Positions 37,445-48,660 of a stretch of 64,000 nucleotides of DNA are shown here, piece by piece. Source of the DNA: Candidatus Promineifilum breve (GTDB lineage Bacteria; Chloroflexota; Anaerolineae; Promineifilales; Promineifilaceae); NCBI RefSeq assembly GCF_900066015.1, contig NZ_LN890655.1, positions 930,001-994,000 on the forward strand, in the 5' to 3' direction. Positions within the stretch are counted from its first letter, which is position 1, and each line of letters opens with the position of its first letter. The position numbers and the translations under genes are program-made. Below the pieces are notes generated by a model that had not been told where the DNA came from, ran no database searches, and saw only the letters and a program-made list of their open reading frames with translations.

Positions 37445-38344
37445 CTACGCGACCATCATCTGCGCCTGAGCAATGGCCCCCAACACCCCGGCGCGATTGC
37501 CCAGACCGGGCGGCACGATATAGCTGTCGATGGCGTCCAGGATGGCCGGCGACTGCACGTAGCCGTTCAGGTATTCCCGCACTTTGGCCCGCACCAGCGG
37601 AAACAGTTGCGGCTGCTCCATCACCCCACCCCCCAGAATGATGCGCTCCGGCGACAGGGTGCAGATAAAGCCCTGCAACGCCCGCGCCAGATAGTGCGCC
37701 TCCAGCTCCCAGGCCGGATGCTCCGGCGGTAGTTCGACCGCCGGTCGCCCCCAGCGCTCGCCGATGGCCGGCCCGGCGGCCATGCCTTCCAGACAATCGC
37801 CATGGAAGGGGCAGTGGCCCTTATACGGGTCGGCCGCCCAGTCGTGGGGCAGCGGGATGTGGCCCATCTCCGGATGCAGCAGGCCGTGGAGTGGCCGGCC
37901 GTCCACCAGCACCCCACCGCCGACACCCGTGCCGATGGTCAGGTAGAGGATCGTGCCGTAGCCCCGCCCCGCCCCCCAACGCCATTCACCCAAGCCGGCG
38001 ACATTGACGTCTGTGTCGAAGCCGACCGGCACGCCGAGCGCCCGGCGGATTGGCCCAACCACGTCGGCATTGGCCCAATGGGGTTTGGGCGTGGATGTTA
38101 TAGAGCCGAAGGTCGGCGAGTCAGAGTTAGGGTCAAGTGGGCCAAAGGAGCCGATGCCGATGGCCGCCGGCGGGCCGAAGCGCGCCTCCTGCTCGCGGAA
38201 GAAGGCCAGGGCGCGGCCGATCGTCTCATCCGGCGTGGTCGTCGGGAAACGGGCCTCGGCGCGCACGTCGTCCGGCCCCGTGCCCACGGCGCAGACGAAC
38301 TTGGTGCCGCCGGCCTCGATGCCGCCTACGTATGCATCACTCAT
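37445..38344 (-). CDS. ROK-family sugar kinase, probable fructokinase
   Basis: 299 aa. ATP/phosphate loop [15 protein letters not shown], catalytic Asp in [13 protein letters not shown], and the ROK zinc-site region [13 protein letters not shown] followed by [18 protein letters not shown]. The C-x-x-H-x-x-C-like spacing of [12 protein letters not shown] is typical of ROK fructokinases (the ScrK/GmuE type) rather than glucokinases. It would phosphorylate fructose released by the amylosucrase encoded just upstream. The ATG overlaps that gene's stop (ATGA). Last gene of the seven-gene disaccharide operon, closed by the perfect hairpin. Confidence 0.88.
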
Positions 38345-40338
38345 TTGGCTCTCTCCTCGGTAGTTGTTTTCATGGCCGCCAACGCCACCGGATCGATTTC
38401 GGGCAGCGGCGTCAGCCATAGCGCTTCGTACCCTTCCAGCGTGATGCCCGGCGCGCTCTCGATCTCGCGACCCGTCAGCCGGTCGACCAGCCGCCCACCG
38501 AAAACCATCTCGTGCAGGCGATAGCCGGGCACGGTTTGGGGGCGCTCGCTGAAGTTAGCCAGCACCAACACCCGGCCGCGCGGGCTATCGCGCAACAGGC
38601 CGAACACGGCCTCATTGTGCGTCCAGACGGGGAAGGCCCCGGCCTGGGCATGGAGCGCGGCCGACCGCCGTCGCGCGGCCAGCATGGCGATCAGGCCATG
38701 ATAGATGCGCCCGGACACCGACCACCAATCCTGCCGCGCGGCGGCCCGCGCCCAGTCCATCGCCGGGCGGTGCATCCAGCGGTTGTCGTCCCGGCGGTCG
38801 GGGTCATCCAGATAGGCCGGATCGTTGAGCAAGCCCAACTCATCGCCCATGTAGAGTAGCGGGATGCCGCCGAAGGCGAAGATGAGATTGTGGATCAGCA
38901 GGATGCGCCGGATGGCGAGATCGGTCGCCCGTGGGTCGTGCTCGGCCAGCGCCCGTTCCAGCCCAGCCAGCGACGCGCACGAGCCACTGATGCGCCGGTC
39001 GTTGGTGCGCGGGTTATATTGGAACGTGGCCCCGCGGGCGAAGGTGTCGGCGAAGCGGCCGCTATAGAACTCGCTCAAAAAGGCGCGGTGGCCGGGGCCG
39101 GACAGACCAACCTCGGCCGCGTCCTCCTCGGTGATGGCCCAGCCGATGTCGTCGTGGCAGCGCACGTAGGTGACCCAGGCCGCGCCGCCGGGAATGGGCG
39201 GCATGTTTTGCAGGGCGCGCGTCATCAGCGTCACCCGCCGCTCGGCCAGGCTGCTCCACAACAGCACCATGAGGACGTTGTGGTAGGCCAGCTCGCACTC
39301 CTTGTTGGTCGCCTCGCCGCGCCCCAGATAGGGGATGAGCTTGGGCGGCGAGACGATGGCCTCGGCCTTCAGGATGAGGCCCGGCGCGGCGATGCGACTG
39401 AGGGCGCGAAAGGCTTGCAGGATGTAGTGGGCTTCGGGCTGGTTCTGGCTGTCGGTGCCCAGCCGCTTCCACATGAAGGCCACGGCGTCGAGCCGCAACA
39501 CTTCAACCCCCTGATTGGCCAGGAACAGGATGATGTCGAGCAACTCGGCCAGCACGGCCGGATTGCCGTAGTTCAAATCCCACTGGTATTCGTTGAACGT
39601 CGTCCAGACCCAACGGTCGATGGCCTCGTAGTAAGTGAAATTGCCGGGCGCGAAATCGGGGAACACTTCGGGCAGCGTCTGCTCGTACTGGTCGGGCAGG
39701 GCGCGGTCGGGGTACATCAGGTAATAGGCCTGATAGTCCGCATCGCCGGCCACGGCCCGTTGTGCCCATTCGTGTTCCTTGGCCGTGTGGTTGCAGACCA
39801 GGTCGATGCACAGACTGATGTCGTCGGCCCGTAACCGGCGGGCCAGCTCGGCCAGGTCGTCCATCGTCCCCAGGGCGGGGTTGACGGCGCGGTAGTCGGC
39901 CACGGCATAGCCGCCATCGTTGGGGCCGGTGCGCGGCTTCAGCAGCGGCATCAGGTGCAGATAGGTGACGCCCAGTTCCTTCAGATAGGGGATGTGGTCG
40001 GCCACGCCACGCAGATCGCCGGCAAAGCGGTCGGCGTAGGCCACGTAGCCCAGCATGTCGGGCTGCTGGAACCAGTCCGGCTGCCCCTGGCGGCGCAGGT
40101 CGAGCAGGCGCAACTCGGCCGGGCGGGTCTGGTAGCCGTGGGCGACGAGGGCCAGCAGGCGATCGCACCAGGCGTCGAAGTCGGGGCGCGCGCCATAGAG
40201 GCGGCGCAACGGCCGCAGCACGTCGGGCCAGTATAGCTCGACCCGCGCGCGAAAGATGTCACGCTCCAGCGGCGTGAGATCGGCCAAAACCCCCTCGGGC
40301 AGCGCCGCCGATTCGGCGGCAACATCACGCTCTTCCAT
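38341..40338 (-). CDS. Amylosucrase / sucrose hydrolase-like GH13 enzyme
   Basis: About 665 aa, subfamily GH13_4 layout with a helical N-terminal domain. The catalytic set is complete: nucleophile in [14 protein letters not shown], acid/base in [13 protein letters not shown], transition-state Asp in [23 protein letters not shown] supplies the Arg of the sucrose-binding salt bridge. It splits sucrose, either transferring glucose onto glucan or hydrolysing it, releasing fructose. The ATG at 40338 has GAGGGGG 8 nt upstream; an ATG 21 bases earlier is possible. It follows trehalose synthase by about 55 nt and is coupled to the ROK kinase. Confidence 0.9.
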
Positions 40339-40394
40339 ACGGGCTTCCCCCTCTGCCATTTAGTTCGCGCTTGATCGGCCAACAGCCACGGCCG

Positions 40395-41996
40395 CTAATT
40401 CTCCAGCAGCCACAGACATTCATAGGGCGACAGATGTATTTCTTCACCGGCCGGGAACGAGCGCTTGTCGCGCGAGAGCAGATCGGTCTGCGTCGTGGCG
40501 GGGATGATGCCCGACGGCCGGGCCGTGTCGCTCAGGTTGAAGACGCACAGCACCCGGTTGTCCCCCTCCGCGCGCCGGAAGGCCAGCACGGCGGCGTGGC
40601 CCGTCTCCACCCAGGCCAGCGTTCCGGCTCGCAGGGCCGGTTGGGCCTGGCGCGCGGCCACCAGATAGCGCGTCCAGTTCAGATAGGAATTGGCGTCGGT
40701 CTCCTGGGCGGCGACGTTGAGGTGACGATAGCTATATTCCGCATCGTCGATGACGGGCTGGTAGGTCTTCTCGGCCTCGGAGAAGCCGGCGTTAGTGGCC
40801 GCCGACCATTGCATCGGCGTGCGCACGCCGTGGCGGTCGTCCAGCCAAATGTTCTCGCCCATGCCGATTTCGTCGCCGTAATACAGGATGGGCGTGCCCG
40901 GCAGCGACAGAAAGAGCGCGTTCAGGGCCAGCCAGCGGCGCTTGTCGTTGTCCAGCAGCGGGGTCAGCCGCCGCCGGATGCCCATATTGAGGCGCATCCG
41001 CGGATCGGGGGCGTATTGTTCCCACATCCATTGCCGCTCCTCCGGCGTCACCATCTCCAGCGTCAGCTCGTCGTGGTTGCGCAGGAAGGTCATCCATTGC
41101 GCGCCGGGCGGAATGGGCGGGGTACGGGCCAGGATGTCGATGATGGGCGTTTTGTCGCCGCTCTTGAGGGCCATGAAGAGCCGGGGCATGATCGGGAAGT
41201 GGAAGCAGACGTGGAACTCGTCGCCGTCACCGAAATAGGGCAGCAGGTCTTCGGGCCACTGATTGGCCTCGGCGATGATCACCCGGCCGGGATACTCCTC
41301 ATCCACCAGACGGCGCACCTTCTTCAGAAATTCGTGCGTTTCCGGCAGGTTCTCGCTATTGGTGCCCTCGCGTTCGTAGAGATAGGGCACGGCGTCGGCG
41401 CGGAAGCCGTCGATGCCCATATCGAGCCAGAAGCGCAGGACGTTCAACATCTCCTCGTGGACGGCGGGATTCTCGTAGTTCAGGTCGGGCTGGCTGGCAT
41501 AGAAGCGATGCCAGAAGTATTGCCCGGCCACTTCATCGTAAGTCCAGTTCGACGGCTCCACGTCCAGAAAGATGATCCGCGCGCCGCTATACTTCTCCGG
41601 CGTGTCGCTCCAGACGAAGTAATCGCGATAGGGGGAGTGGCGATCCTGCCGGGCGGCCTGGAACCAGGCATGTTCCTCCGAGCAATGGTTCATCACCAGG
41701 TCGGTGACGACGCGCAGGCCGCGGGCGTGGGCGGCGTCGAGGAAGGCCCGGAAGTCGTCGAGTGTGCCGAAGTCGGGCAGGATGCCGGTGTAGTCGGCCA
41801 CGTCGTAGCCGTCATCCTTCAGCGGCGAGGGGTACATGGGCTGCACCCAGATGCAATCGACGCCCAGCGAGCGGATATAGTCCAGCTTGTCGATGGCCCC
41901 GCGAAAGTCGCCGATGCCGTCGCCGTTCGAGTCGCGATAGGCGCGGATGTTCAACTCAAAGAAAACAGCCTCCTGATACCAGGGTTTGTCGGACAT
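40395..41996 (-). CDS. treS: Trehalose synthase (maltose alpha-D-glucosyltransferase)
   Basis: 533-aa GH13 enzyme interconverting maltose and trehalose. It starts [20 protein letters not shown], with [18 protein letters not shown] after it. The active-site motifs are [14 protein letters not shown] (nucleophile Asp), [18 protein letters not shown] (acid/base Glu) and [22 protein letters not shown] and the short C-terminal beta domain agree with TreS. The C-terminal maltokinase domain found in some fused forms is absent. The ATG at 41996 has GGAG 8 nt upstream; the upstream in-frame part crosses a repeat element and is not coding. Oligo-1,6-glucosidase is a less likely alternative. Confidence 0.92.
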
Positions 41997-42027
41997 GGGT
42001 GTTGCTCCAATTATGAGGGTTAGGGTG

Positions 42028-42117
42028 GACAAGGCAGGGGGGCAGGGGCGCAGGGGAGCAGGGGTGAGGTTCTTTCTCCCCTGCGCCCCTACCCCCCTGC
42101 TCCCCTGCTCTCTCCCG
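42028..42117. repeat. G-rich/C-rich inverted repeat, family D, copy 1
   Basis: GGCAGGGGGGCAGGGGCGCAGGGG words pair with CCCCTGCGCCCCTACCCCCC words across GTGAGGTTCTTTC. It lies inside the disaccharide operon, between the AglG-like permease stop and the trehalose synthase start, and abuts the permease stop codon. Such a hairpin could lower expression of downstream genes relative to the transporter. Confidence 0.8.
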
Positions 42118-43224
42118 CTATCCCTTGACCGAACCGGCCAGCAGGCCGCGCACAAAGAAGCGCTGCAGGCCGAAGAAGACGATCATCGGCAGCAGCATCG
42201 TGATGAACGCGCCGGCGGTCAGCAAGTGCCAGTCGTTGCCGCGCGAGCCGACGATGTCGGCCAGGCGTTGGGTGATGACCTTCGTCTCCGGGTTGCCGCC
42301 CAGGAAGATGAGGGCCACCAGGTAGTCGTTCCAGACCCATAGGAACTGGAAGATGGCGAACGAGGCCAGCGCCGGCACCGATAGCGGCAGGATGAGCCGC
42401 CGGAAGACGACGAAGTGGGACGCGCCGTCGATGAAGGCCGATTCCAGCGTCTCCCGCGGCAATTGGCTGATGTAGTTGAACAGCAGGTAGGTCGCCAGCG
42501 GCAGACCAAAGCCGGTATGGGCCAGCCACATCGCCAGGAAGGTGCCGTTGATATTCAGGGAACGGAAGTCCTTCAGGATGGGCACGAGAGCGATCTGCAG
42601 CGGCACCACCAGCAGGGCCACGACCATGATGAACAGCACCCGCCGGCCGGGGAAGCGCATCCAGGCGAAACCATAGGCGGCAAAGGCGGCCACCAGGATG
42701 GGGATGAGCGTGGCCGGCACGGCCACGGCCAGACTATTGAGGAAGGCGCTGACGAAATCATCGCCGGGGATGATCTCGACCGAGCCGTCGGGCCGGGTGT
42801 ATTCGAAGTCCTTGCCGCTCAACACCTGGCGGTAGTTCTCCAGCGAGAAATCCCAATCGACCGTCCAGCTCTCTTCCTGCACCTCGATGCGGCCGAGGCG
42901 GCGGTTGCCTACCCAGCGGTAGTACTTGCCTGCGGGCGTCGTGATGCCGACCTCGCGCAACTCCTCAAACGTCGTCTCCACGCCGTCGATGACCATCGGG
43001 CCGGTCGGGTCGAGGCCCATGTCGGCCGGGCTGAGCGTCTCCACCGTCTCGAAGGCGCGATGGGGGAAGATCTTCCACCAGCCGGTGGCCTGGATCGCCT
43101 CGCGGCTGCGGAAGCTGGAGACGAACAGGCCGAGCGTCGGGATGGTCCAGATCAGAACCAGGATCAGTAGCGCGCCGTTGACCAGCAGGCGGCCATAACG
43201 TTGTTGACTCTTGATGCTGCCCAT
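42118..43224 (-). CDS. Sugar ABC transporter permease, MalG/AglG-like (CUT1)
   Basis: 368 aa, longer than usual MalG because of a large extracytoplasmic loop of about 125 residues between the first two helices ([19 protein letters not shown]...). This feature is shared with alpha-glucoside AglG proteins. Six membrane helices follow the binding-protein-dependent permease pattern. The EAA loop that docks the ATPase is [20 protein letters not shown] with the conserved GA and L. The ATG overlaps the partner permease stop (TAATG). No ATPase gene is present in the operon, so a shared MsmK/MalK-type ATPase from elsewhere is expected. Confidence 0.92.
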
Positions 43225-44399
43225 TAGAAGGCCTCCTGCTCGCGGAATTGCTTCAGGTTGTAGATCATGACCGGGACGATGGCGATGAGCAGTACCACGG
43301 CAATGGCCGAACCGTATCCGGAATTGCGGGCGATGAACGACTGCCGGTAGAACTGCGTGGCGATCACGTCCGTGCCGAACTGTCCTCCGGTCATTACCCA
43401 GACTACGTCGAATATTTTCAGGGTAAAGATGAGGACCGTGGTACTGACGGTGATGATCGTGCCCATGATGTAGGGGATCATAATCCGGAAGAAAATCTGG
43501 ATCTCATTGGCACCATCGACGCGGCCCGCTTCCATCAGGTCGGCGGGGATGCCCTTGAGCGCGGCCGAGAAGAGAACCATGGCGTAGCCCACCTGGAGCC
43601 AGATGACGATCACGATCAGAAAGAGATTGTTCCAGGGCGAGATGGCCGTCCACGCCGGCCAGGGTTGCGGCTGACCGCCCAGGTTGACAACGATGGCGTT
43701 CAACAGGCCGATCTGCTCGGCGTTGACCGGGCGCACCTCGTAGACGAAGTTCCAGATAACGCCGGCGCCGACGAAGGAGATGGCCATGGGCAGGAAGATA
43801 GCCGACTTGCCCAGGCGCTCGAAGCTGCTGCGGTCGGCCAGTACGGCGATGAGCAGGCCAATGATGACCGTAATCGTCGCGCCGAAGACGATCCACATCA
43901 CATTGTTGCGGAACGCCTCCAGCATGAGCCGGTCGGTGAAGACGGCCACGTAGTTATTGAGGCCGACAAAGCGCTCGCCCAGGGCGGCAAAGCTGCCGCC
44001 CAAATCGCCCCAGTTGAGCCAGCCATCCGGCGGGCCATCGCGGTTGAAGAGGCTAATCCAAAATGTGCGCAAGACCGGGAAAGCCAGAAACCAAATCAAC
44101 ATGGCGACGGCCGGACCGACGAAGACAAACGGCTGTAACCGGCCGCGCCATTCGTCGCCCATGCGCTCCACGATCCAGTTGAAAAGCCAGTAAAGAGCGG
44201 CTACGCCGCCCACGCCCCAGATGATGGCAACGATAACAACCAACCACTTCGGCGCACTCCCCGCCCGCAGGAAGTCGAACCCCAGATACATCACGAGAAA
44301 GGCGATGGCCAGGATGGCAACGGGCAAGGCAATGCGTAGCAGCCATGTCAGGAGCCGGGTCAATAAGCCCGGTTGTGCCTGAGAGGTATCAGTTCGCAT
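43224..44399 (-). CDS. Sugar ABC transporter permease, MalF/AglF-like (CUT1)
   Basis: 391 aa with eight hydrophobic segments; the first two (residues 10-75) precede the conserved permease core. The ATPase-docking EAA loop reads DLMEAGRVDGANEIQIFFRI. LAFPVLRTFWISLFNRDGPPDGWLNWG matches the AglF group of alpha-glucoside transporters. A strong Shine-Dalgarno (AGGAGG) precedes the ATG at 44399. It forms the channel with the MalG-like partner and receives sugar from the duplicated binding protein encoded upstream. Confidence 0.92.
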   Translation of the reverse strand: MRTDTSQAQPGLLTRLLTWLLRIALPVAILAIAFLVMYLGFDFLRAGSAPKWLVVIVAIIWGVGGVAALYWLFNWIVERMGDEWRGRLQPFVFVGPAVAMLIWFLAFPVLRTFWISLFNRDGPPDGWLNWGDLGGSFAALGERFVGLNNYVAVFTDRLMLEAFRNNVMWIVFGATITVIIGLLIAVLADRSSFERLGKSAIFLPMAISFVGAGVIWNFVYEVRPVNAEQIGLLNAIVVNLGGQPQPWPAWTAISPWNNLFLIVIVIWLQVGYAMVLFSAALKGIPADLMEAGRVDGANEIQIFFRIMIPYIMGTIITVSTTVLIFTLKIFDVVWVMTGGQFGTDVIATQFYRQSFIARNSGYGSAIAVVLLIAIVPVMIYNLKQFREQEAF

Positions 44400-44516: not shown

Positions 44517-47056
44517 TTATTCAGTCGGCCAAGAGGCGTCGATCTCGCCCAGAACTGTTTCCAGGTCGGCCGCGCCGCTGACAAAATCGGTCATGCCCTT
44601 CCAGAACGAGCCGCCGCCGACTTCGCCGGGCATCAGGTCGGAGCCGTCGAAGCGGAAGCTGGTCGCCTGCGCTACCAGTTCGGCGATGCCGCGCTCCAGA
44701 TCCACGCCGTACATATCCGGGGTGGCCGTCTGGTGGGCCGACAACGCGCCGCCCGTCTCCAGCCAACCGGAAGCGGATTGCGGGGTCGTGAAGAACTCCA
44801 TGACCGCGCGCACTTCCGGCCGGTCGTTGAACATGGCCATGATGTCGCCCGCGACCAGGAACGGCCGGCCCAACGACTCATCGATGGGCGGCAGGTAGAA
44901 GAAGGAGTAATCCTCGCCGGCGACCGCCCCTTCGGGGAAGAAGCCGGTGATGAAGTTACCTTGCTTGTGCAGCCAGCAGCCGGGCGGATCCTCGAACATC
45001 GGGGCCGGGCTGTCGCCGAAGTTGGTCGAGACGATGCCGCTCGTACCGCCGAAGACGAAATCGGGGTTGAACCAGATCTCTTCCCACGCGCCGATGGCGG
45101 CGGTCACTTCGGGTGAGGAGAAGGGCAGTTCGCCACGCACCCAGGCGTCGTAGTTCTCCAGCGACGTGGTACGCAGCATGGTCTCTTCCGTCCAGTCGGT
45201 CGCCGGCCAGCCGGTGGCCGCGCCGGACTCGATGCCGATGCACCACGCCGGGTCGCCGTCGTCGGCGATCAGCTGGGTCAGCTCAAGCAGTTCAGCCCAG
45301 GTCTCAGGAACGGTGTAGCCAGCTTCGTCGAAGGCGGCCTTCGGATACCACACCAGGCTCTTGCCGTTGAAGCGATGGAACACGCCGGCCTCGATCGCGC
45401 CGTCGGGGCCTTCGATCGTCGCCATGTCACGCCAGCTCTGGTTGTACTGCTGGGACAGCCATTCTTCGGACAGGAAGGTCGAAACGTCGATAATCTTGCC
45501 CTGGCGGACGAAGGTCGCCAGCAAGCCGGGCTGCGGGAAGTCGGCGATGTCGGGGGCGTCGCCGGCATCCACGCGGACGCCAATCGAACCCTCGAACTCC
45601 TTGCCGCCGATATACTGGATGTCGATGCCGGTCGCTTCCTCGAAGGAGGCCATCGACTGCTCGAACTTAACCGTGTCGGCATCGGCGAAGGGGCCGTCAA
45701 CCGTGACGACCGTGCCGGTGAAATCGCCGTTCATGGCCTGTTCCATGAAACCGCCGGCGATCATCGCCATCGCTGCGGCGGCCGGCTCTTCGGTCTCTTC
45801 CTGAGCCTGACCCGCCACGCCTTCCGGCCAGGACGCATCGATCTCCGGCAGGACGGTGTCGAGGTCGGCCGCGCCGCTAACGAAGTCGGTCATGCCCTTC
45901 CAGAACGAGCCGCCGCCGACTTCGCCGGGCATCAGGTCGGAGCCGTCGAAGCGGAAGCTGGTCGCCTGCGCTACCAGTTCGGCAATGCCGCGCTCCAGAT
46001 CCACGCCGTACATCTCCGGGGTGGCCGTCTGATGAGCCGACAACGCGCCGCCCGTCTCCAACCAACCGGAGGCCGATTGGGGCGTCGTGAAGAACTCCAT
46101 CAACGCCCGCACTTCGGGCCGGTCGTTGAACATGGCCATGATGTCGCCCGCGACCAGGAACGGCCGGCCGTAGGCCTCGTCGATGGGGGGCAGGTAGAAG
46201 AAGGAGTAATCCTCGCCGGCGACCGCCCCTTCGGGGAAGAAACCGGTGATGAAGTTACCTTGCTTGTGCAGCCAGCAGCCGGGCGGATCCTCGAACATCG
46301 GGGCCGGGCTGTCGCCGAAATTGGTCGAAACGATGCCGCTCGTGCCGCCATAGACGAAATCGGGGTTGAACCAGATCTCTTCCCAGGCGCCGATGGCCGT
46401 GCGGACTTCGGGGCTGTCGAACGGCAATTCGCCGCGCACCCAGGCGTCGTAGTTCTCCAGCGACGTGGTGCGCAGCATGGTCTCTTCGGTCCAGTCAGTC
46501 GCCGGCCAGCCGGTGGCCGCGCCGGACTCGATGCCGATGCACCACGCCGGGTCGCCGTCGTCGGCGATCAGCTGGGTCAGCTCAAGCAGTTCAGCCCAGG
46601 TCTCGGGAACGGTGTAGCCGGCTTCGTCGAAGGCGGCCTTGGGATACCAGACCAGGCTCTTGCCGTTGAAACGGTGGAACACGCCGGCTTCCATCGCGCC
46701 GTCGGGGCCTTCGATGGTCGCCATGTCGCGCCAGCTCTGGTTGTACTGCTGGGACAGCCATTCTTCGGACAGGAAGGTCGAGACGTCGATAATCTTGCCC
46801 TGGCGGACGAAGGTCGCCAGCAAGCCGGGCTGCGGGAAGTCGGCGATGTCGGGGGCGTCGCCGGCATCCACGCGGACGCCAATCGAACCCTCGAACTCTT
46901 TGCCGCCGATGTACTGCACGTCGATGCCGGTGGCTTCCTCGAAGGCAATCATCGACTGCTCGAACTTAACCGTGTCGGCGTCGGCGAAGGGGCCGTCGAC
47001 GACGACAACCGTGCCGGCATACTCACCAGCCATAGCCGCTTCCAGCGCGCCGCCGG
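44517..47056 (-). repeat. In-frame direct tandem duplication, period 1299 bp
   Basis: Bases 44517-45757 repeat as about 45816-47056. For example, the string TCATGCCCTTCCAGAACGAG begins at 44591 and again at 45890. Similarity is very high over most of the length and fades at about 45700/47000, where the linkers begin. Differences are scattered and mostly silent or conservative. Confidence 0.92.
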
Positions 47057-47276
47057 CCATGAACGACATCGCGCCGGCTTCGGCCGGCACTTCCGCTTCT
47101 TCCTCGGCCGGGGCTTCGGCTTCTTCTTCGGGGGCCGCTTCCTCGGTGGGGGCGGCTTCTTCCACGGCCGGGGCTTCGGTCGGGGTGGCCTCTTGCGCGC
47201 CGCCGCCACAGGCCACCAGGGCCAGGGCCAGCACGAGCAACAGGCTCAAAATCGTAAATCGTCCAAACTTGCTCAT
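44517..47276 (-). CDS. Extracellular sugar-binding lipoprotein with two tandem binding domains (AglE-like)
   Basis: 919 aa, about twice the normal length. A signal peptide ends in LALVAC (lipid Cys23), followed by a Glu/Ala/Pro linker. Then come two complete solute-binding domains in the same frame: about residues 74-506 and 507-919. Both contain GTVV.VDGPFADADTVKFEQS, YIGGKEFEGSIGVRVDAGDA, GDPAWCIGIESGAATGWPAT, DPPGCWLHKQGNFI and DLMPGEVGGGSFWKG. The two copies are offset by exactly 433 codons. They are nearly identical but differ at scattered sites (for example EAYGRP/ESLGRP, VYGG/VFGG). It should deliver two ligand sites per anchored polypeptide to the AglF/AglG channel. GGAGG lies 11 nt before the ATG. 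Confidence 0.93.
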   Translation of the reverse strand: MSKFGRFTILSLLLVLALALVACGGGAQEATPTEAPAVEEAAPTEEAAPEEEAEAPAEEEAEVPAEAGAMSFMAGGALEAAMAGEYAGTVVVVDGPFADADTVKFEQSMIAFEEATGIDVQYIGGKEFEGSIGVRVDAGDAPDIADFPQPGLLATFVRQGKIIDVSTFLSEEWLSQQYNQSWRDMATIEGPDGAMEAGVFHRFNGKSLVWYPKAAFDEAGYTVPETWAELLELTQLIADDGDPAWCIGIESGAATGWPATDWTEETMLRTTSLENYDAWVRGELPFDSPEVRTAIGAWEEIWFNPDFVYGGTSGIVSTNFGDSPAPMFEDPPGCWLHKQGNFITGFFPEGAVAGEDYSFFYLPPIDEAYGRPFLVAGDIMAMFNDRPEVRALMEFFTTPQSASGWLETGGALSAHQTATPEMYGVDLERGIAELVAQATSFRFDGSDLMPGEVGGGSFWKGMTDFVSGAADLDTVLPEIDASWPEGVAGQAQEETEEPAAAAMAMIAGGFMEQAMNGDFTGTVVTVDGPFADADTVKFEQSMASFEEATGIDIQYIGGKEFEGSIGVRVDAGDAPDIADFPQPGLLATFVRQGKIIDVSTFLSEEWLSQQYNQSWRDMATIEGPDGAIEAGVFHRFNGKSLVWYPKAAFDEAGYTVPETWAELLELTQLIADDGDPAWCIGIESGAATGWPATDWTEETMLRTTSLENYDAWVRGELPFSSPEVTAAIGAWEEIWFNPDFVFGGTSGIVSTNFGDSPAPMFEDPPGCWLHKQGNFITGFFPEGAVAGEDYSFFYLPPIDESLGRPFLVAGDIMAMFNDRPEVRAVMEFFTTPQSASGWLETGGALSAHQTATPDMYGVDLERGIAELVAQATSFRFDGSDLMPGEVGGGSFWKGMTDFVSGAADLETVLGEIDASWPTE

Positions 47277-47369
47277 ATGATTCTTTTCCTCCCAGAAAAG
47301 GGTAAGCGTTAATCTTGAAACGGGATTCCTGGTGTTCATTGGGTGTTCTTCAATAACGATCCTCCTCGG

Positions 47370-48404
47370 TCAGGGATTTGCAGCGGGTGGAGCCGTCGTG
47401 TGGCGGGCCACCAATTCAGTCGGCAAGACGATGTGGGGGGCGGGGCGACTGACGTCACTGTCCAATAGTTCCAGCAACAACTCCGCGCCGCGCGCGCCCG
47501 TTTCATAGAGCGGCTGGCGAATGGTGGTGAGTCGAAAATGCTGGGCGATTTCCACGTCATCGAAGCCGATGACGGAGAGTTGATCCGGTACGGTGATGTG
47601 GCATTGCTGGGCGGCCTCGAGCGCGCCGAAGGCCATCGTATCGCTATAGGCGAAGACGGCCGTCGGCGGCGCGGCCAGGGCCAGCAGGTCGTGGGCCATG
47701 CGTCGCGCCTCGCGCCAGCCGTATTTGCCCTGGCGGTGGTACTCGGGCACGAACGGCAAATCGGCCGCAGCCAGCGCGGCGCGATAGCCACGATAGCGGT
47801 CGTCGATGGGGCGAAAGTGGAAGGGATTATCATCCAGTTGCTCGCCGACGTAGGCGATGCGCCGGTGACCCAGGGCGATTAGATGCTCCACGGCCGCGCG
47901 CGCCCCGGCCTCGTCGTCCACGGTCACGGTGGGCAGAGTGTCGTGGTACGTGTCGATCAGCACGGTGGGCACTCCGATTTGTTGCAGGCGCTCCACTTCG
48001 GCGTCGTCGGGGCCAAGCGACAGGATGAGCAGGCCGTCGAGCCGCTCGCCGCGCGGCAGGGCGCGCAGGCACTCATCGCGCCGGGCGACCGTTTCGACGT
48101 TATAGAGGATGAGATCATAACCGCCGGCCGAGAGGACATGCTCGATTCCTTGCAGGCGTTCGACGTAGGAGCGTCGGGTGAAAAAGGGGGCGATGACGGC
48201 GATCGCCATCGACCGGCCCCCGGAGAGGCGGCGGGCCACTGAACTCGGCGAGTAGTCGAGCGCGGCGATGGCAGTCTGCACCCGCTGGCGCGTGTCCTCG
48301 CTGACCAACGGGCTGTCGTTCAGGACACGCGAAACGGTGGCGATGCCGACGCCCGCTTGCCTGGCAACATCCCGAATGGTGACAGCCGCCAATTCCTCTC
48401 CCAA
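47370..48404 (-). CDS. LacI-family transcriptional regulator of the disaccharide operon
   Basis: 344 aa. Helix-turn-helix TIRDVARQAGVGIATVSRVLN with the hinge region YSPSSVARRLSGGRS, then a periplasmic-binding-protein-like sensor domain (AIAVIAPFFTRRSYVERLQGI; DGLLILSLG; VIGFDDVEIAQHF; TTIRQPLYETG). It lies 93 nt before the binding-protein gene and is transcribed with it. The start is uncertain: TTG at 48404 or TTG at 48392, the latter close to GGGAGAGG. A perfect palindrome in front of it suggests autoregulation, with a sugar such as sucrose, trehalose or maltose, or a phosphorylated form, as inducer. Confidence 0.92.
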   Translation of the reverse strand: MGEELAAVTIRDVARQAGVGIATVSRVLNDSPLVSEDTRQRVQTAIAALDYSPSSVARRLSGGRSMAIAVIAPFFTRRSYVERLQGIEHVLSAGGYDLILYNVETVARRDECLRALPRGERLDGLLILSLGPDDAEVERLQQIGVPTVLIDTYHDTLPTVTVDDEAGARAAVEHLIALGHRRIAYVGEQLDDNPFHFRPIDDRYRGYRAALAAADLPFVPEYHRQGKYGWREARRMAHDLLALAAPPTAVFAYSDTMAFGALEAAQQCHITVPDQLSVIGFDDVEIAQHFRLTTIRQPLYETGARGAELLLELLDSDVSRPAPHIVLPTELVARHTTAPPAANP

Positions 48405-48506: not shown

Positions 48507-48660
48507 TTAGCGCAGGGGGGCAGGGGGGCAGGGGGGCAGGGGGGCAGGGGAGAGCAACCCCCTCTCCCTATGGGAGAGGGTTGGGGAGAGGGTCTTCGCT
48601 TTCACCCCTGCTCCCCCGCTCCCCTGCTCCCCTGCGCCCCTGCCCCCCCGCTCCCCTGCA
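48507..48660. repeat. G-rich/C-rich inverted repeat, family D, copy 2
   Basis: Four consecutive GGCAGGGG-type words on the left pair with CCCCTGC/CCCCCGC words on the right (48605-48658). An inner hairpin CCCTCTCCC-TATGG-GAGAGGGTTGGGGAGAGGG lies in the middle. It separates the lacI promoter from the 3' end of the acyl-CoA mutase and could insulate the two. Any run of four G-tracts here could also form a quadruplex. Confidence 0.82.

Follow-up and report, generated by a model that had tools for sequence, protein, structure and literature searches.

The gene at 44517..47276 of the window (the whole 64,000-nt stretch of Candidatus Promineifilum breve DNA that was analysed) encodes a sugar-binding lipoprotein with two complete solute-binding domains in one chain, and the two domains are 93% identical. 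We interpret the protein as a CUT1 alpha-glucoside receptor that serves an importer and has its binding domain tandemly repeated in one lipoprotein, forming a capture string of variable repeat number, and we give this reading a probability of roughly 70%.

Two complete binding domains on one lipid anchor

According to the ORF listing and its translation, the reading frame is open over 940 codons (44517-47339, minus strand). The start is likely the second ATG at 47276 (MSKFGRF, residue 22 of the long ORF), which lies 3' of a GGGAGGA stretch and gives a protein of 919 aa. The gene and its parts, with the evidence for each, are as follows.

44517..47276, minus strand: solute-binding lipoprotein, presumed AglE-like, double-domain, 919 aa (ORF, repeat map, Pfam SBP_bac_1 per half)
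47208..47276, minus strand: signal peptide with lipobox L-V-A-C at its end (Cys44 of the long ORF; translation)
47055..47207, minus strand: Glu/Ala/Pro-rich acidic stalk of about 50 aa from the anchor to the first domain (sequence)
45822..47054, minus strand: first solute-binding domain (profile match, model positions 1-407; AlphaFold2 model of the half)
45756..45821, minus strand: linker between the domains, about 22 residues, a WP-E-GVAGQ junction followed by a Glu/Ala-rich part (sequence/profile alignment)
44526..45755, minus strand: second solute-binding domain, every family-invariant residue present (repeat map, profile, residue conservation)

The repeat map aligned residues 88-508 with residues 521-940 (long-ORF numbering) at a constant offset of 433 codons, or 1299 nt, and along this alignment no gap, stop or frameshift was found between the copies. 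The in-frame tandem duplication that an earlier sequence-only reading had described was thereby confirmed, as was its claim of a single signal peptide and lipobox, since LVAC (residues 41-44 of the long ORF) occurs once and nothing similar was seen in the translation 5' of the second domain. The stalk between anchor and first domain is likely disordered. Its coding sequence contains 24-bp short tandem repeats (47080-47142), and stalk length differs between relatives, one example being a PAAEQ repeat in locus L141.

Searched separately, the two halves matched Pfam SBP_bac_1 with 70 and 65 bits, the cut-off being 26. For the full double protein no Pfam family was reported at 1e-3, a usual threshold. 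This is a possible annotation blind spot and a warning, as is the risk of breakage or collapse of genes of this kind in draft genomes. The AlphaFold2 model of the first half (mean pLDDT 93.6) has the two-lobed fold of CUT1 binding proteins, and the best Foldseek matches to it were CUT1 sugar-binding proteins (E down to 1e-18, TM up to 0.78), the nearest structures being AcbH, BxlE and binding proteins for xylo-oligosaccharides and chitin-oligosaccharides. AcbH (3oo6), BxlE (3vxc) and BlAXBP (3zkk) share the fold of each half but are single-domain proteins, with 13-19% identity in the structural matches. An AlphaFold2 model of the 919-aa double protein was set aside (pLDDT 35.5, from an alignment of three sequences), and a larger full-length alignment (A3) was not folded because single-domain sequences were divided between the halves and would mimic a false domain swap.

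Proteins with a single domain from Rhodobacteraceae, Paenibacillus, Spirochaetales and further Chloroflexota belong to the same sequence family, with 40-64% identity over the full domain to relatives outside Chloroflexota. None of the curated equivalog models matched the binding protein at its cut-off. From the sequence family and by analogy with agl operons we take the protein to be AglE-like, and the name AglE is used here on that presumption. Identity as a CUT1 binding protein, proposed in the sequence-only reading, rests on a profile score above the cut-off in each half, on the fold and on two CUT1 permeases encoded alongside. CUT1 binding proteins usually have one binding domain per chain, a trait that is not strictly defining; we call the window protein a variant CUT1 binding protein because it has two complete ones.

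Operon and genome context

The operon has the AglE/F/G-like order LacI regulator, binding protein, two permeases, trehalose synthase, second GH13 enzyme and ROK protein. Apart from the binding protein its genes are:

47370..48404, minus strand: LacI-type regulator, the operon gene upstream (PF00356, PF13377)
43224..44399, minus strand: permease 1, AglF/MalF-like (PF00528)
42118..43224, minus strand: permease 2, AglG/MalG-like (PF00528)
40395..42155, minus strand: trehalose synthase (TreS, maltose alpha-D-glucosyltransferase; NCBIfam TIGR02456, 803 bits, cut-off 678.35)
38341..40359, minus strand: GH13 enzyme with an amylosucrase-like C-terminus (PF00128, PF22582)
37445..38419, minus strand: ROK family protein (PF00480), probably a sugar kinase

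Judging by the presence of TreS, GH13 and ROK genes, our guess is that the ligand of the importer is an alpha-glucoside of the trehalose, maltose or sucrose type. The genome has one gene for a MalK-type ATPase, located away from the operon. The one close paralogue of the binding protein in the genome has a single domain and no permeases of the AglF/AglG type next to it, and among the SBP_bac_1 genes of the genome the window gene alone gives two matches. Between the LacI gene and a methylmalonyl-CoA mutase gene lie perfect and near-perfect 8-bp tandem repeats (GCAGGGGG, CCCCTGCT), at 48512-48550 and 48605-48659.

Both copies are constrained and have evolved in concert

The two copies differ at 97 nt across 410 profile-matched codons (1230 core sites; dS 0.26, dN 0.038). 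The differences are scattered and mostly silent, dN/dS between the halves is about 0.15, and the longest identical stretch is 116 nt (permutation p 0.004). About 14 core residues are unlike between the halves, and differences cluster at the edges and in the linker. Neither half has lost any of the 30 family-invariant residues or any near-invariant one, and in other genomes substitutions at conserved positions are usually common to both. These patterns indicate strong constraint on both halves. With respect to a difference in specificity of the GlnPQ kind, the invariant residues are identical in the two halves; both domains would therefore probably bind the same sugar.

The window genome (G000; 5.03 Mb in 3 contigs) was compared with its congener G002, which also has a double gene. 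The sites showed 18 orthologous, 75 concerted and 5 cross patterns, arranged in blocks (permutation p<1e-4): orthologous patterns are concentrated at the edges and predominate in the first 30-60 codons, and the interior is nearly all concerted. The same block structure was observed in the pairs G021/G068, G011/G069 and G358/G156. Within-protein dS is 0.26 and 0.14 in the genus, as compared to 0.45-0.53 between orthologues, and in G243 it is 0.02 as compared to about 2.2 between G243 and G373. In trees, the core halves pair inside each protein in most lineages, and grouping of N-terminal with N-terminal and C-terminal with C-terminal halves is limited to the edges, being wider in the G011/G069 pair. 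Copies within a gene are thus more alike than orthologous copies while the edges are unconverted, the pattern expected of a concerted tandem repeat.

These comparisons show concerted evolution, in which intragenic recombination has homogenised the cores. In the genus, the edges group N with N and C with C, which places the duplication before the split of G000 and G002; the concerted interior and a within-protein dS far below the orthologue dS place the homogenisation of the cores after it. Of the two origins offered in the sequence-only reading, gene conversion or a recent event, it is gene conversion that is upheld, as seen in the cores, and the latter is contradicted by the edges. The G265 gene comprises a minimum of four domains in a single open frame that reaches the contig end. 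Its adjacent domains form pairs with 97-98% identity within a pair and 82% from pair to pair, a pattern that fits unequal crossing-over.

Repeat number varies across the class

A homology search for other double-domain members found them in nine further genomes of the family (G002, of the same genus, and G016, G068, G021, G065, G062, G064, G069 and G011), as well as in other families of the class (G292, assembled as one contig, and G288, G358, G156, G352, G373 and G243). More distant doubles with nearly identical halves are present in G051 and G044. Nearly all doubles are flanked by a LacI gene on one side and the permease pair on the other, or lie immediately 5' of the permeases, and the order LacI, double binding protein, AglF, AglG, in some cases followed by TreS and GH13, is kept in many genomes. 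No doubles were seen outside the class in a wider sample of the phylum. AglE/AglF/AglG relatives outside Chloroflexota belong to the same domain sequence family, but at all 47 complete loci the binding protein has one domain where the window protein has two; within Chloroflexota the permease pair and the gene order are also as in the window.

Across the class, the copy number in relatives is one, two or at least four, and there are also tandems of unlike domains. The same operon locus encodes a single domain in the congeners G006, G001 and G007, draft assemblies in which collapse is possible, and single-domain forms occur in few-contig genomes too. One double ORF (L070, JALWZT010000137.1, 828 aa) has an assembly gap of undefined bases in its second domain and illustrates how a draft assembly can fail at the domain repeat.

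The linkers and halves bear on how often the architecture arose. In the main group the linker has the motif WP-x-G-V/I-x-G, which is missing from the C-terminus of all 27 single-domain genes examined, and this WP-x4-G motif is suggestive of a shared origin of the group. It does not occur in G373/G243 and G051/G044, whose linkers are unrelated, and the double architecture has therefore probably arisen more than once. Lead-sequence identity between genera is 0.49 for C-C and 0.49 for C-N; we do not claim from these short leads a single ancestral duplication for all genera, as C-leads are not separable from N-leads. For close genome pairs, an ancestral duplication is shown by the site patterns. 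In the one-contig genome G292 (L190, G292:C1:2770000-2789000) the N half groups with the window family and the C half with the orphan paralogue family. A fusion of two paralogues describes this double better than a homogenised repeat does, and since its halves fall in different clades not every double is a repeat at the same site.

Proposed role and alternatives

We propose that the two domains hang on the acidic stalk and the linker, both flexible, and that one domain would hand its ligand to the AglF-AglG permease while the other already holds sugar. Binding sites would in this way be doubled per exported, lipidated chain and per permease. Conversion between the repeats would keep the copies the same, and unequal crossing-over would shrink the array to one domain or enlarge it to four or more. 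Energy would probably come from a shared MalK-type ATPase encoded elsewhere, proposed because one was found in the genome. Valency is to our mind the most economical mechanism, and uptake may benefit from it, in line with the suggestion of the sequence-only reading that two sites on one anchor could raise local sugar capture. Doubling is evidently not essential, as many sister lineages have one domain, and it could be nearly neutral.

Near-neutrality is thus one alternative. Tandem duplications may come and go by recombination in a highly expressed gene, the second domain being a useless by-product. The orthologues in congeners that have one domain at this locus are in line with this, as are the switches between single and multi-domain states, of which well-supported tree branches require at least 11, and the very low within-protein dS in several lineages. 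Yet both halves remain strongly constrained, with no invariant residue lost, the double form predates the split of several genome pairs, and doubles recur in one operon type but at none of the loci examined outside Chloroflexota. We consider a purely neutral origin of the pattern rather unlikely.

It is unlikely, too, that the halves are specialised, one having another affinity or serving in docking instead of capture, like the unlike domains of GlnPQ. In the core of G000 the differing residues include none at an invariant or near-invariant family position, and conserved-site changes elsewhere are mostly found in both halves. Tandems of unlike domains do exist, more than one genome pair retains unconverted (orthologous) islands in the core, near alignment codons 331-360 and 91-120, and the halves differ at 154 residues in G292 and at 91 in G156. 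These islands and unlike halves may leave room for specialisation in some lineages.

An assembly or mis-joining artefact, against which the sequence-only reading had already argued, is hardly conceivable: long near-identical tandem repeats do trouble short reads and several related draft genomes break within the gene, but the window genome is in three contigs with about 100 scattered differences between the copies, the linker sequence is not in any single-domain gene examined, and an error private to this assembly is ruled out by the doubles found in many others made independently, including a single-contig one.

Returning to the capture string, we raise as a tentative extension that Chloroflexota tune uptake by the number of identical domains per anchor (one, two or at least four) through fast intragenic recombination, with the copies kept alike. 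The number may even vary within a population and act as a contingency-like capacity dial.

Relation to known systems

The closest known kind is the GlnPQ amino-acid importers, which have two binding domains per chain, joined by a short flexible linker and serving one importer, and in which the tandem arrangement leaves the affinity of each domain unchanged (PMC8025302). The GlnPQ domains are fused to the membrane domain, giving four sites per transporter, and they differ in specificity and affinity (PMC8025302). Both GlnPQ and the window protein carry tandem binding domains in one chain; unlike GlnPQ, the window protein belongs to the CUT1 sugar family and is a lipoprotein in its own right, with permeases encoded by other genes, and repeats of its type are near-identical, homogenised and present in one to at least four copies. 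The unchanged affinities in GlnPQ would agree with independent sites in the window protein, the benefit of the tandem being a separate matter. OpuA-type importers have covalently linked binding domains near the translocator, which gives a high local concentration (PMC11065425). They resemble the window protein in having more than one tethered domain close to one translocator, but carry one domain per membrane subunit and transport another substrate class, whereas the window protein has several in a row on one anchor. In the literature searched, which covered few subscription papers, no tandem sugar-binding lipoprotein of similar design was found, nor any such repeat for the CUT1 transporter type; its architecture and evolution are shown here.

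For ABC importers it is an open question why the same site should be repeated within a binding protein. In GlnPQ, valency cannot be separated from the different specificities of the domains and from their fusion to the permease. A cleaner natural experiment is offered by the orthologous loci described here, where near-identical domains number one, two or at least four in otherwise the same operon, in some cases within one genus; through them the effect of receptor valency on uptake is directly testable. They also provide a bacterial example of a large folded domain that evolves in concert within one gene.

Other fusions of the AglE-like domain

Several further loci (L027/L058 in G018, L193 in G358:C2, L082/L198 in G193, L091 and L113) have an unlike N-terminal part 5' of an AglE-like domain. 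By eye, this part is a CUT1-like binding domain in L027, L082 and L193; in L091 an additional AglE-like domain begins at the contig end. Two ORFs combine an AglE-type domain and a putative membrane helix with, as judged by eye, a transcription-regulator-like N-terminus (L199, G317:C5:890000-907000, 812 aa) or a Ser/Thr protein kinase (L200, G340:C1:2103000-2120000, 779 aa), and are putative transmembrane sugar receptors.
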